A stretch of 64,000 bases of DNA. Origin: Acinetobacter albensis (GTDB lineage: Bacteria; Pseudomonadota; Gammaproteobacteria; Pseudomonadales; Moraxellaceae). Numbering within the stretch: position 1 is the first letter of the stretch; each line of letters starts with the position of its first letter. The stretch spans positions 124,001 through 188,000 of the forward strand of contig NZ_FMBK01000003.1 in NCBI RefSeq assembly GCF_900095025.1, given 5' to 3'. Positions 4,063 to 63,708 of this stretch are shown in pieces. Made by a program: the position numbers and the translations under genes. The notes under the pieces are model-generated. The model worked only from the letters and a program-made list of their open reading frames with translations, was not told the DNA's origin and did not search any database.

Positions 4063-5214
4063 TTAACGGTTCTGCCAAACGCTTAATGCGCCCTTTCTCG
4101 TAGAAACATACAATTGTCCGTCAATCACACGCAAAGAACGCACTTCACCACTGGTTTTTGAACGCCCCACAAGCTGTCCAGACGTGGGATCAATTAAATG
4201 CAATACGCCATCTAAATCACCCACCACCAAGTCTTGTCCTAAAATAACAGGATTGCTTAACTGACGATTCAGCAAACTTTCGTTTTGCCATAACTGCTCA
4301 CCTGTAGTGAGTGCATAAGCGGTAATCTTACCGTCGGCTTGAGTTACATAAACAATATTATTCGATACTTCTGGACGCTGGATACTGCTAGCATCTTCAC
4401 TCCACACCACTTGCTGTGAAGCTAAATCGGTAACCGTTACTTGGCCTTGAAAACTGGTGGTCACCAAAAACTGACCCGCAACCACTGGATCACCATCAAT
4501 ATCATTTAGACGTTGAATATCTGAACGTCCTTCGCTGACTGAAACACGGCGCTGCATACGCGGAATACCGCTTAATACATCAAGCGCGTAAACATAAGCA
4601 TTGGATGAAGCAATTAACACTGTACGTGAGTCAAGTGCAACCGGTGATGCCATACCTCGTAAACTAAATTGTACATTCGGCATGTTATAGGTCCAGACTT
4701 GCTGACCTGTGGCGAGATCATGTGCATAGACCGTACCATCGTTGCTAACACTAATCACACGACCTGATTGAATGAGTGAAGCCGATAGTAAAGCACCTGA
4801 CAACTGCGCACTCCATTTTTGCTCACCTGTTGCTTGATCAAGCGCAAACAGTTGGCCTTTTTTATTCCCAACAATGACTATTCCTTCAGCAGCTTCTACG
4901 CCAGAACTTAGACCTTGTTTAGAAACTTTTGTTTCCCACAAACGCTGTTTACCTTTATAGGCAGTTACCTCACCTTTCGGATCAAGTGCGAAGATAACGC
5001 CATTATCTACATCTAAACGCAAACGTAACGGATCTTCTTCACTGGTTGAAGAAACACTTTGGGAAAATACAGGCACAAGGCTTTTTGCTTGAACTAATTT
5101 TGGTAATGGATTGGGTTTCACCTTTTCCACTTTCACTTTATTGGTTGAACAACCAACAAGTGCAAAAGTTAAAATAGTGAGTGCAAACGGTATTTTATAT
5201 TTTCTATCCATCAT
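4063..5214 (-). CDS. bamB: Outer membrane assembly lipoprotein BamB
   Basis: 383 residues: an N-terminal lipoprotein signal (LTFALVGC, lipobox Cys at about 22) then PQQ-type beta-propeller repeats such as LFALDQATGEQKWSA, VYAHDLATGQQVWTY and ITAYALTTGEQLWQN. BamB is the eight-bladed propeller of the BAM complex that inserts beta-barrel proteins into the outer membrane. It acts on the periplasmic face of that membrane. Its start overlaps the yfgM stop by 4 nt (ATGA), which points to translational coupling. Two adjacent ATG codons (5214 and 5211) make the exact first residue uncertain. Confidence 0.96.
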   Translation of the reverse strand: MMDRKYKIPFALTILTFALVGCSTNKVKVEKVKPNPLPKLVQAKSLVPVFSQSVSSTSEEDPLRLRLDVDNGVIFALDPKGEVTAYKGKQRLWETKVSKQGLSSGVEAAEGIVIVGNKKGQLFALDQATGEQKWSAQLSGALLSASLIQSGRVISVSNDGTVYAHDLATGQQVWTYNMPNVQFSLRGMASPVALDSRTVLIASSNAYVYALDVLSGIPRMQRRVSVSEGRSDIQRLNDIDGDPVVAGQFLVTTSFQGQVTVTDLASQQVVWSEDASSIQRPEVSNNIVYVTQADGKITAYALTTGEQLWQNESLLNRQLSNPVILGQDLVVGDLDGVLHLIDPTSGQLVGRSKTSGEVRSLRVIDGQLYVSTRKGALSVWQNR

Positions 5215-60997: not shown

Positions 60998-62104
60998 ATG
61001 AAAATTATGCAACTTCTTCCTGAATTAAACAGTGGCGGCGTTGAACGTGGCACACTCGAAATTGCACGCGCATTGGTGGATGCAGGACATGAATCGTTGG
61101 TGGTTTCAAATGGAGGACGGATGGTATCTCAACTTGAAGCTGAGGGTTCACAACACTTCACTTTGGCCATTCATAAAAAATCTATAACGAGTCTTTGGCA
61201 AATTCGCCCCTTACGCAGACTCATTGAACAGCATCAACCCGATATTGTGCATGTCCGTTCACGCGTTCCAGCTTGGTTGACCCATTTTGCGCTCAAAGGA
61301 ATACCTTCAGCTCAACGTCCACATTTGGTCTCTACGGTTCATGGTTTTTATTCGATTAATCGTTATAGCGCCATCATGACGCAAGCTGAAAAAGTCATCG
61401 CAGTCTCGGACAGTGTAGTGCAATATATCACCGATCATTACAAAAACTGCCCACCTGAAGATATCGTGCGAATTTATCGCGGTATTTCACCTCAGGAGTT
61501 TCCGCATGGCTATCAACCTTCTGCGCAGTGGCTTGGACAAACCTTTCAATCCTTTCCTGAACTGGAAAATAAGTTTTTAGTCTGTCTCCCTGGGCGGATT
61601 ACGCGCTTAAAAGGACATGAAACACTGATTGAACTGATGCAGCAACTCCACACGCAATATCCGAACGTACATGCGGTGGTGGTCGGCGGTGCAGATGCAA
61701 AAAAACAGACATATTTAGATGAACTAGAAAATACTATTAAAGCAACAGGCTTACGAGAAAATATAACCTTTGTGGGACATCGTTCAGATATTCGAGAATG
61801 GTTGGCTTTGAGTGATGTGGTACTTTCTCTTTCGAATCAGGCAGAAACTTTTGGTCGAACGGCTTTAGAAGCACTCTCGGTAGGAACCCCAGTGATAGGT
61901 TGGAACCGTGGTGGTGTAGCTGAAATTTTATCACAGCTCTATCCACAAGGCTTAATTACCATCAATGACCAAGTTTCACTTTTAAATACGTTGCAACAAC
62001 ATATTGAGCAGCCCCAAAAAGTGCAGCCTGTTAGCATTTTCAGTTTAAAAGCAATGTGTAACCAAACCTTAGAGCTCTATCAATCTTTATTAAACAAAAA
62101 ATAA
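60998..62104 (+). CDS. GT4 glycosyltransferase, probable lipooligosaccharide core enzyme
   Basis: 368 residues, GT-B fold: ELNSGGVERGTLEIARAL (acceptor loop), LVSTVHGFYSINRYS, LVCLPGRITRLKGHETLI (donor domain start) and the E-x7-E motif in AETFGRTALEALSVGTP. It transfers a sugar to the growing core at the cytoplasmic face. It is downstream of a lipid A acyltransferase gene and close to it, which is the main support for a core role. The sugar is unknown. Confidence 0.85.
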   Translation: MKIMQLLPELNSGGVERGTLEIARALVDAGHESLVVSNGGRMVSQLEAEGSQHFTLAIHKKSITSLWQIRPLRRLIEQHQPDIVHVRSRVPAWLTHFALKGIPSAQRPHLVSTVHGFYSINRYSAIMTQAEKVIAVSDSVVQYITDHYKNCPPEDIVRIYRGISPQEFPHGYQPSAQWLGQTFQSFPELENKFLVCLPGRITRLKGHETLIELMQQLHTQYPNVHAVVVGGADAKKQTYLDELENTIKATGLRENITFVGHRSDIREWLALSDVVLSLSNQAETFGRTALEALSVGTPVIGWNRGGVAEILSQLYPQGLITINDQVSLLNTLQQHIEQPQKVQPVSIFSLKAMCNQTLELYQSLLNKK

Positions 62105-62313
62105 ATTCAATATGTTGTCGTATTTTTTTCGAATAATCATTAATGGAAAAGATTGATTAAAACAGTGCCAATAAATCGTCTTTATCTTACCTGTATGCCT
62201 TATGGCTATACATTCACAAGCACGAAACCAGCTATTTAAAACTCAAAATTACGATACTTAAGAATCAAAGTTTTTGTTTAAGTTGTTTTATTCCTATTAT
62301 TTTTAAGAAATTC
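62105..62313. other. Gap between the glycosyltransferase gene and the small-RNA terminator
   Basis: About 210 bp, AT-rich, no gene or clear signal. The small-RNA terminator stem could also stop transcription from the plus-strand glycosyltransferase gene. Confidence 0.4.
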
Positions 62314-62488
62314 TAAAAAATTAAAACCCGAGTTCTGCTTCCTGCAAAACTCGGGTTAATAAGGTTGTGCTTTCAAATCTTATATTTATTGTGCAATTTG
62401 CTATCCATTGCTGCATCATATCCATGATGACTATCCACTTTCAGCATCGTCTTCCTTAAGGGGATTTTCCGTTCCCAACTCCTTGGCT
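62314..62488 (-). ncRNA. Candidate CsrA/RsmA-titrating small RNA (RsmY/RsmZ/CsrB-like)
   Basis: A stretch with no gene, about 175 nt on the minus strand. It holds eight GGA motifs (complement TCC at 62480, 62473, 62468, 62453, 62434, 62421, 62404 and 62340). Three sit in hairpin loops: GGGA/TCCC (62461-62476), CAUCAU-GGAU-AUGAUG (62414-62429) and GCAA/UUGC (62393-62411). A fourth lies in the loop of the closing terminator, whose stem AACCCGAGTT/AACTCGGGTT (62325-62334, 62348-62357) runs into T-rich sequence. A GacA-like site lies about 68 nt upstream of the predicted start. RsmY-type RNAs bind and sequester CsrA/RsmA. Start and ends are inferred: TTTAGA, 16 nt, TAAACT as promoter. Confidence 0.7.
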
Positions 62489-62547
62489 GATGAGTTTAGG
62501 TTAAATGAATGAGCTCTAAATCACTATTCGCAAACGGCCTAAATCAC

Positions 62548-62565
62548 TGTAAGTCATTTCGTACA
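62548..62565 (-). promoter_or_regulatory. GacA-type upstream activating site
   Basis: On the minus strand TGTACG-AAATGA-CTTACA, against the GacA consensus TGTAAG-N6-CTTACA: 11 of 12 defined bases match. It is centred about 68 nt before the predicted small-RNA start, as in the rsmX/Y/Z genes of Pseudomonas, and lies 16 nt after the stop of the hydrolase gene. Confidence 0.65.
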
Positions 62566-62580
62566 TTAATCCAGCGAAGC

Positions 62581-63708
62581 CTAAGAAATTTTTGTAGCTC
62601 CTTGATAATCTTGGATGATTGGGTCAGTTAATCTTTTTTCTTCTCTTTCTGCTTTTTCAATCCCTTCCTGAATGGCCTCTTGTGCTTCTTGTTCATCTGC
62701 ATCCGTTTGTTTTAGAGGTTGTTGCACCTGTTCAAAAACACGTCCAGTTTGTAACACAACGTGCACTGGAAAATGATCGGATCCCATATGGGGTAACCGC
62801 TCCATCTTCACCAAAGCAAAATCTGTACTGTGAAAAACATGATCTAAAGACCAACGTAATAGCGGATAATCGGCATGGAACGTATTGACATAACGTCGTC
62901 CTACACGCGGATCTAACAGACCGCTAATGCGTTGAAAAAGACGCGTGGTTCGTGACCACGCCACATCATTTAAATCACCCATTACAATACAGCTTTCATC
63001 TAAATCTTTAATCTGATCACCGACAATCAGTAGTTCAGCATCACGCAAGGTCGAATCTTTGGCTTCAGTTGGACTAGGAGGTTTTGGATGCAAGCAATAC
63101 AACTGTACAGGTTGTCCTGATCGTAAGATCACCGTAGTATGAATTGAGGGAATTTCATCACTTAAAATAAATTTCACTTCAGTATCTTTTAGCTCTAAAC
63201 GACTATATAAATGCATACCGTATAGGTTATCTAGTGGTACAGGCACACGATAGGGATAATCCTGCTCAATCACAGACAATTCATTCTGCCAACGCTGATC
63301 TGTTTCCAAGGTAAGAACCAAATCTGGCTGATATTTTTGAATTTCCTGAATTAATAGATGGTATTTTTGATTAGGGGTCAGTACATTTGAAACCATTAAT
63401 GAGATTTGCTGATCTGGGTTAAACTGACTTTTACGTACATGTTTTACCTGCTTTTTCCAAATAAACGTATAAGGCAAAACCATTTTGAGTTGATACGCAA
63501 GCGCAGCAATCAAGCCAATCAAAGTAAGTTCACGCCAAAGATCCCACGGCTGATCCCAGACCAGTAATAAAACGAAAGCAACAATACCCAAAACCAAAAT
63601 TTGTAAGCGTGGAAAGTCAGCACCGCGAAACCACCATTCATCACGTGGAATGAGAGACCAAAAAGTCAACCAAATGACAATAACTGCAATTATTTCCACC
63701 CAGACCAT
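62581..63708 (-). CDS. Membrane-bound endonuclease/exonuclease/phosphatase (EEP) family protein
   Basis: 375 residues. Three hydrophobic segments in the first 85 residues, then an EEP catalytic domain: MVSNVLTPNQ, LETDQRW, HPKPPSPTEAKDS, GDLNDVAWS and MGSDHFPVHV, where the Glu, Asp, Asn and His form the metal-dependent active site. A Glu/Gln-rich tail ends the protein. Members hydrolyse nucleic acid or lipid phosphodiesters. With this topology the domain would face the periplasm or cytoplasm, undetermined. It is followed on the same strand by the candidate small RNA. Confidence 0.85.
   Translation of the reverse strand: MVWVEIIAVIVIWLTFWSLIPRDEWWFRGADFPRLQILVLGIVAFVLLLVWDQPWDLWRELTLIGLIAALAYQLKMVLPYTFIWKKQVKHVRKSQFNPDQQISLMVSNVLTPNQKYHLLIQEIQKYQPDLVLTLETDQRWQNELSVIEQDYPYRVPVPLDNLYGMHLYSRLELKDTEVKFILSDEIPSIHTTVILRSGQPVQLYCLHPKPPSPTEAKDSTLRDAELLIVGDQIKDLDESCIVMGDLNDVAWSRTTRLFQRISGLLDPRVGRRYVNTFHADYPLLRWSLDHVFHSTDFALVKMERLPHMGSDHFPVHVVLQTGRVFEQVQQPLKQTDADEQEAQEAIQEGIEKAEREEKRLTDPIIQDYQGATKIS

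Follow-up and report, generated by a model that had tools for sequence, protein, structure and literature searches.

In Pseudomonas, the small RNAs RsmX, RsmY and RsmZ are preceded by a TGTAAG-N6-CTTACA palindrome, carry GGA motifs in hairpin loops, end at a terminator and occur in several copies per genome. The CsrB and CsrC RNAs of enterobacteria are GGA-rich, CsrA-titrating RNAs under the control of the GacA orthologue UvrY. The stretch of Acinetobacter albensis DNA analysed here, 64,000 nt in length and hereafter referred to as the window, very probably contains a conserved, structured non-coding RNA gene of about 178 nt that is predicted to be activated by GacA and is likely to sequester CsrA through GGA hairpin loops. 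As in RsmX, RsmY and RsmZ, the centre of the palindrome is located about 65 bp before the probable start, the loops contain GGA motifs and the RNA ends at an intrinsic terminator; likewise, the genome encodes GacA- and CsrA/RsmA-type proteins and has several RNA copies. The window RNA differs from these RNAs in that a near-invariant unpaired element precedes the terminator and no Rfam family matches it at the gathering level. Compared with CsrB and CsrC, which are longer and contain more GGA motifs, it is also GGA-rich and again has no match to an Rfam family.

GacA and CsrA are described as important for virulence, metabolism and growth of Acinetobacter in the published sections on which we draw (e.g. 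PMC12070743, PMC12802169). In A. baylyi, the growth on 4-hydroxybenzoate that is gained via loss of gacA requires csrA, and the RNAs between GacA and CsrA are unnamed and postulated as a model only in the sections of this 2025 study used here (PMC12455638). The A. albensis genome encodes a single CsrA-type protein above the Pfam cut-off, of 87 residues, and a single GacA-type regulator, which scored 267.6 bits against 79.8 for the next best protein and is below the curated E. coli-type cut-off of 280. A hybrid kinase of the GacS/BarA type scored 551 bits against 113 for the next, which is below the curated E. coli-type cut-off of 890.

The small RNA locus and its neighbours

The features of the locus and the two flanking genes are as follows, in window coordinates.

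62565-62548, minus strand: GacA-type upstream activating palindrome TGTACGAAATGACTTACA (TGTACG-AAATGA-CTTACA), 11/12 identical to TGTAAG-N6-CTTACA
62503-62498, minus strand: -10 element TAACCT (genus consensus TATTCT) of the putative promoter
62492-62313, minus strand: small RNA of about 178 nt, with the probable start at 62492-62490
62490-62486 with 62445-62441, minus strand: helix P1, which encloses P2; covariation in the alignment
62476-62473 with 62464-62461, minus strand: helix P2, loop GGA at 62470-62468; covariation in the alignment
62429-62414, minus strand: helix P3, CAUCAU-GGAU-AUGAUG, loop GGA at 62423-62421; conservation of pairing
62374-62360, minus strand: near-invariant unpaired element GAAAGCACAACCTTA / GAAAGCACAACC, without GGA (alignment A1)
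62357-62315, minus strand: intrinsic terminator with a 14-pair stem (62357-62325), loop AGGAA (GGA at 62342-62340) and a T tail
62581-63708, minus strand: upstream neighbour, a gene of the endonuclease/exonuclease/phosphatase (EEP) family (open reading frame; Pfam PF03372, 1.6e-34)
60998-62104, plus strand: convergent neighbour, an lpsB-type glycosyltransferase gene (open reading frame; Pfam glycosyl transferase group 1 and family 4)

A preliminary description of the locus had reported the 11/12 palindrome, the exact CAUCAU-GGAU-AUGAUG hairpin and a strong terminator with GGA in its loop, and all three were recovered on the minus strand. It had also proposed a promoter with a transcript start at 62488. 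A conserved -10 element is consistent with the possible promoter, and positions 62492-62490 are a better estimate of the start, since the distance from the palindrome to the CAUC motif and the -10 element are both conserved there; a scan with the sigma-70 consensus did not pick the promoter of the small RNA.

The EEP gene was used as the synteny anchor for finding loci in relatives. The glycosyltransferase is 80% identical over 371 positions to an open reading frame of A. baumannii X4-300 that is called LpsB by the rgi prediction of PLSDB and is located about 1.8 kb from the RNA in that strain.

At the gathering level, no Rfam family matched anywhere in the window, including RsmX, RsmY, RsmZ, CsrB and CsrC, in agreement with the low identity to known Rsm RNAs suspected at the outset. 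Nine weak matches in the region 62200-62700 (FtrA, TD-2 and others) were far below the cut-offs and included no Rsm or Csr family, and a search of 16 RNA loci representing paralogues, A. baumannii or other genera returned only an unrelated TPP riboswitch.

Conservation, structure and GGA content

Of 99 Acinetobacter genomes sampled, 87 had a DNA match to the locus. The palindrome (at most two mismatches) was located directly downstream of the same neighbour gene in 60 of 63 loci; the exceptions were L042, which has no RNA there, and L044 and L054, in which the palindromes have three mismatches. For the structural analysis, we used an alignment (A1) of 54 loci that are mutually <93% identical, selected from 93 sequences consisting of the window and 92 loci after removal of L042.

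The 5' end of the palindrome is located 73 nt before the inferred RNA start in 50 of these loci, 72 nt in two and 74 nt in two, consistent with the earlier proposal of an activating site some 60-70 nt upstream. The half-sites of the palindrome were 92% conserved, compared with 61% for the DNA between the palindrome and the RNA, and the first T, the A and the final T of the -10 element were invariant in all 54 loci.

The four helices were paired in 99.0% of the alignment cells, with double changes in 11 of 27 pairs. On each of five measures, the real structure scored above all 500 shuffles. Slid controls were 30-44% paired, a comparison that favours the structure because the structure was drawn from the consensus of the same alignment. 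Helix P1 was paired in 99.6% of cells (double changes in 3 of 5 pairs), P2 in 97.7% (3 of 4 pairs) and the terminator in 99.7% (5 of 13 pairs). Helix P3 was paired in 97.4% of cells with no double change, so that its support comes from conservation only. The loops of all three conserved hairpins contain GGA in 54 of 54 loci. The alignment across Acinetobacter thus yielded both the covariation and the conserved GGA loops that the preliminary description had proposed to look for.

A strand-specific cluster of eight GGA motifs had been claimed for the locus. We counted eight on the minus strand in the 181 nt from 62492 to 62312 and one on the other strand. The expectation of about two that accompanied the claim was too low, since shuffles of the locus itself gave 3.4 motifs when mononucleotide composition was kept (P(>=8) = 0.006) and 4.6 when dinucleotide composition was kept (P = 0.017), a modest enrichment when taken alone. 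The average across the window is 1.4-1.6 GGA per 181 nt, and a density of at least eight per 181 nt was reached twice on the minus strand and never on the plus strand. One of the two is this locus; the other is a stretch near 25.7 kb, at about 25660.

Given the modest excess in the window copy, it is the comparison across relatives that settles that the cluster is not due to chance. The 54 non-redundant relatives contained 430 GGA motifs, compared with 283 +/- 11 in shuffled sequences and a maximum of 321 in 200 rounds; the median was 8 GGA per RNA. Across the 93 sequences, some of which are one genome fetched twice, there were 6-11 GGA and 0-2 TCC per RNA.

Distribution across Acinetobacter and other genera

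We built a covariance model (R1) from the RNA of the 54 loci only, with the palindrome excluded. In A. albensis (G000), R1 matched G000:C17:186313-186492, corresponding to window positions 62313-62492, although this locus is itself among the 54 used for building the model. Matches were obtained in 163 of 175 Acinetobacter genomes, with a single copy in all but three of them. Ten of the 12 genomes without a match are <3 Mb in size.

A GacA orthologue was present in all 12 negative genomes (70-95% identity) and in 12 others tested (24/24). The retention of GacA without a clear copy of the RNA in 12 of 175 genomes counts against the reading of the RNA as a sponge linking GacA to CsrA. A laxer search yielded weak R1 matches in five of the 12 genomes, at six places. 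In G130, the match represents what looks like a decayed copy, which has fewer GGA motifs and a 10/12 palindrome; the match on contig 8 of G164 is a member of the second RNA family described below; the other four loci were fetched and had no palindrome at the right place.

When 249 genomes from the family were sampled, R1 matched ten outside Acinetobacter at E <= 0.01. The six matches at E <= 1e-3 were inspected (G183, G197, G207 and G215 from one genus, G184 and G178), the other four having E values of 0.002-0.01. In five of the six, a 12/12 palindrome precedes the beginning of the R1 match by exactly 73 nt, while G178 has a 10/12 palindrome further upstream and 15 GGA motifs. Since the palindrome was never seen by R1, these matches independently confirm that the palindrome and the GGA RNA travel together.

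Paralogues and a second family also carried by plasmids

The genome of A. albensis holds 11 palindromes with at most one mismatch, compared with 9 for a reversed-pattern control. The count is hardly above the control, which is a point against the reading. Six of the 11 palindromes, that of the window RNA included, lead a short RNA with GGA hairpins and a terminator. We built a second model (R2), palindrome included, from the five other sites. Matches at these five are therefore by construction, but R2 identified four further sites in the genome, on contigs 30, 14, 12 and 13. These copies combine the same hairpins with TGTACG-N6-CGTACA palindromes (10/12), although the GGA in the terminator loop has been lost from one of them.

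In total, the genome holds about ten additional GGA RNAs led by a palindrome (loci L094, L095, L098, L103, L104 and L192-L196), on contigs 7, 12, 13, 14, 20, 24 and 30. Most of them belong to a second, shorter family with three hairpins and AGGA loops. With the window RNA and an adjacent pair on contig 7 included, the genome total is about eleven. The reading of the RNA as an Acinetobacter counterpart of the Rsm and Csr RNAs is supported, but it is one of about eleven rather than the only member. Two of the additional RNAs are located 6 kb apart on contig 24.

Among 41 genomes, R2 matched 39; five to ten matches were obtained in 30 of the 41, and 13 in one. These copy numbers are estimates since only the strongest match per genome was inspected. 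In the strongest locus of each of 30 genomes, a palindrome (at most three mismatches) and at least two AGGA motifs were present in 30 of 30, and at least three AGGA motifs in 29. Most of the AGGA motifs have been lost from a copy on a 9.5-kb contig of G085.

The second family also matched 131 PLSDB records, all from Acinetobacter. Among the 30 records listed, 24 are <200 kb in size and six range from 288 kb to 4.1 Mb, several of which are plainly chromosomes. Two small mobilizable plasmids, NZ_LN865144.1 (L180 3417-3650) and NZ_MK944322.1 (L181 222-455), carry a 10/12 palindrome and the hairpins. On both plasmids, the copies are located in gaps without a listed gene. The window RNA matched four PLSDB records, all of which are at least 1 Mb, and is thus chromosomal as far as seen.

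Counterparts among A. baumannii transcripts

In A. baumannii AB5075, RNA-seq identified a 173-nt transcript on the minus strand, ABUWs074 (art68), at the syntenic place; it is listed without function in the part of the report used here (Weiss et al. 2016, PMC5320573). The orthologue in X4-300, a chromosome-sized PLSDB record, adjoins the EEP gene and is 174 nt long between the ends that we chose, compared with 173 nt for ABUWs074, and the window RNA and ABUWs074 are both on the minus strand. In place, size and strand, ABUWs074 is as expected for a transcript of the orthologous locus.

The same part of the report describes the 'Group 3' RNAs ABUWs005, ABUWs061, ABUWs081 and ABUWs083, with neither a function nor an Rfam match (PMC5320573). 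They belong to a sequence family different from the window RNA. Relative to ABUWs074, the published positions place them at -438 kb on the same strand and at +270, +368 and +713 kb on the opposite strand, and place ABUWs076/077 at +75 kb on the same strand (PMC5320573).

We calculated the offsets from the R1 match to the R2 matches in eight relatives, using rounded genome lengths and an assumed AB5075 length, and leaving out matches on a small second contig in G062 and G085. R2 matches were located at -418 to -477 kb on the same strand in four of the eight, at +249 to +260 kb on the opposite strand in all eight, at +334 to +364 kb on the opposite strand in seven (often as three copies), at +681 to +755 kb on the opposite strand in all eight and at +74 to +78 kb on the same strand in all eight.

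Based on the matching place, strand, offsets and size, the orthologue of the window RNA is very probably ABUWs074, as judged from synteny, strand and size rather than from AB5075 sequence. The second family very probably corresponds to the Group 3 RNAs, an assignment made from positions and strands and not from the sequence of AB5075.

At the +75-kb place, X4-300 has two palindrome-led RNAs 447 bp apart, compared with 448 for the 5' ends of ABUWs076 and ABUWs077. ABUWs076 is sRNA99, the most prevalent small RNA in Hfq chimeras according to the portion of that study consulted (PMC12802169). Pairs of palindrome-led RNAs about 420-450 bp apart correspond by place to ABUWs077 and ABUWs076/sRNA99, which suggests Gac control of an Hfq-bound RNA: the minus-strand palindromes start at 5100 and 4653 in L179, and are at index 1306 and 1724 from the right end in L192.

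Function and alternative readings

All tests of the original proposal that could be run favoured it, and the proposal is supported; GacA control and CsrA binding are the parts that we infer. In the proposed pathway, GacS would signal to GacA, and phosphorylated GacA at the upstream palindrome is predicted to switch on the small RNA. The RNA would then titrate CsrA through the GGA motifs in its hairpin loops, and CsrA-repressed mRNAs would be released. The window RNA probably acts together with the roughly ten other palindrome-led GGA RNAs of the genome, and the amount of sponge would then add up over many genes.

The near-invariant element at 62374-62360 is not accounted for by CsrA titration and counts against the sponge reading. 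The RNA might instead be a GacA-controlled regulator that mainly base-pairs with mRNAs via the element GAAAGCACAACC, with CsrA binding in a secondary or protective role. Few parts of the alignment are as conserved as the element, which carries no GGA; in many species it has CCTC, which could pair with ribosome-binding sites, and a neighbouring type of palindrome-led RNA matches by position the Hfq-associated ABUWs076/sRNA99 mentioned above. However, the GGA loops are as conserved as the element, and its exact complement was found only at the RNA gene itself in six genomes. Comparison of 24 of the 32 complement sites with one mismatch revealed no two that share DNA around the site, although L226 and L229 share DNA beside it. 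We consider a mainly base-pairing function unlikely.

It is very unlikely that the conserved sequence is the 3' end of the EEP transcript, consisting of a terminator and stabilising hairpins with no independent RNA. In the window, the RNA does closely follow the EEP gene in the same orientation, as it does in 62 of the 63 loci (not L042) and in ten further loci. Yet the small RNA has its own -10 element and a palindrome at fixed spacing, and in G094, from which the EEP gene is missing, it persists between asd and the glycosyltransferase gene (L145 8610-8779). The separate transcript listed for AB5075 points in the same direction (PMC5320573).

A small protein-coding gene or a chance cluster of GGA motifs, to which the modest enrichment in the window copy alone and open frames of 26-38 codons in some copies might point, is disfavoured by covariation and genus-wide conservation and is hardly credible. 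The copies have no reading frame in common: in the central part of the RNA, net length differences split 19, 14 and 20 of 53 among the residue classes modulo 3. The locus is thus a gap without a gene, as described from the start, as far as proteins are concerned, and the RNA is non-coding with an intrinsic terminator at its end.

With titration of CsrA as the preferred reading, this RNA gene and its paralogues, being conserved, are candidates for the missing link between GacA and CsrA that was postulated in A. baylyi in the sections cited above (PMC12455638), and a candidate role is provided for several A. baumannii transcripts listed without function. The functional class is known and the sequence family is outside Rfam; what was least to be expected is the presence of many copies, some of them on plasmids. 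Tentatively, and a little short of evenly balanced, we suggest that these RNAs form a dispersed, partly mobile Gac-Csr set of about eleven per genome in several sequence families, comprising an ancient and mostly single-copy window RNA that other genera of the family share, an expanding three-hairpin family found on small plasmids as well, and a link to Hfq through the ABUWs076/sRNA99 type. If so, Acinetobacter would not be limited to two to four sponge RNAs, and plasmids may retune the CsrA of their hosts. With this copy number and plasmid carriage, the sponge of Acinetobacter would be of unusual size and mobility.

Relation to earlier predictions

In the open-access literature, a scope outside of which Kulkarni 2006, Singh 2025 and Kroger 2018 fall, we found no description of the locus as a Gac-controlled CsrA RNA. 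In evolution experiments with A. baylyi, mutations arise in a predicted small RNA located between recD and ACIAD0400, as stated in the part of the report used here (PMC11426457). Its position fits roughly that of the window RNA, but we do not claim identity because the upstream gene in the ten further loci is the EEP gene and not recD.

CsrA-type RNAs were predicted in A. baylyi ADP1 by Kulkarni 2006, as cited in an excerpt of PMC5568370, and, with reference to the same work, the available portion of a paper from 2025 depicts a 'CsrB-like small RNA' in A. baylyi (PMC12442408). The excerpt of the 2017 study lists two predicted RsmA-regulating RNAs of ADP1, ACIAD0018/0019 of 119 nt and ACIAD2750/2751 of 139 nt (PMC5568370). 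No palindrome with at most two mismatches was present in the two stretches of G134 (3.57 Mb) at the published ADP1 coordinates, although G134 may not be ADP1. The predicted ADP1 RNAs are from the same genus and of the CsrA type, but they are shorter than the window RNA and nearer to the second family in size.
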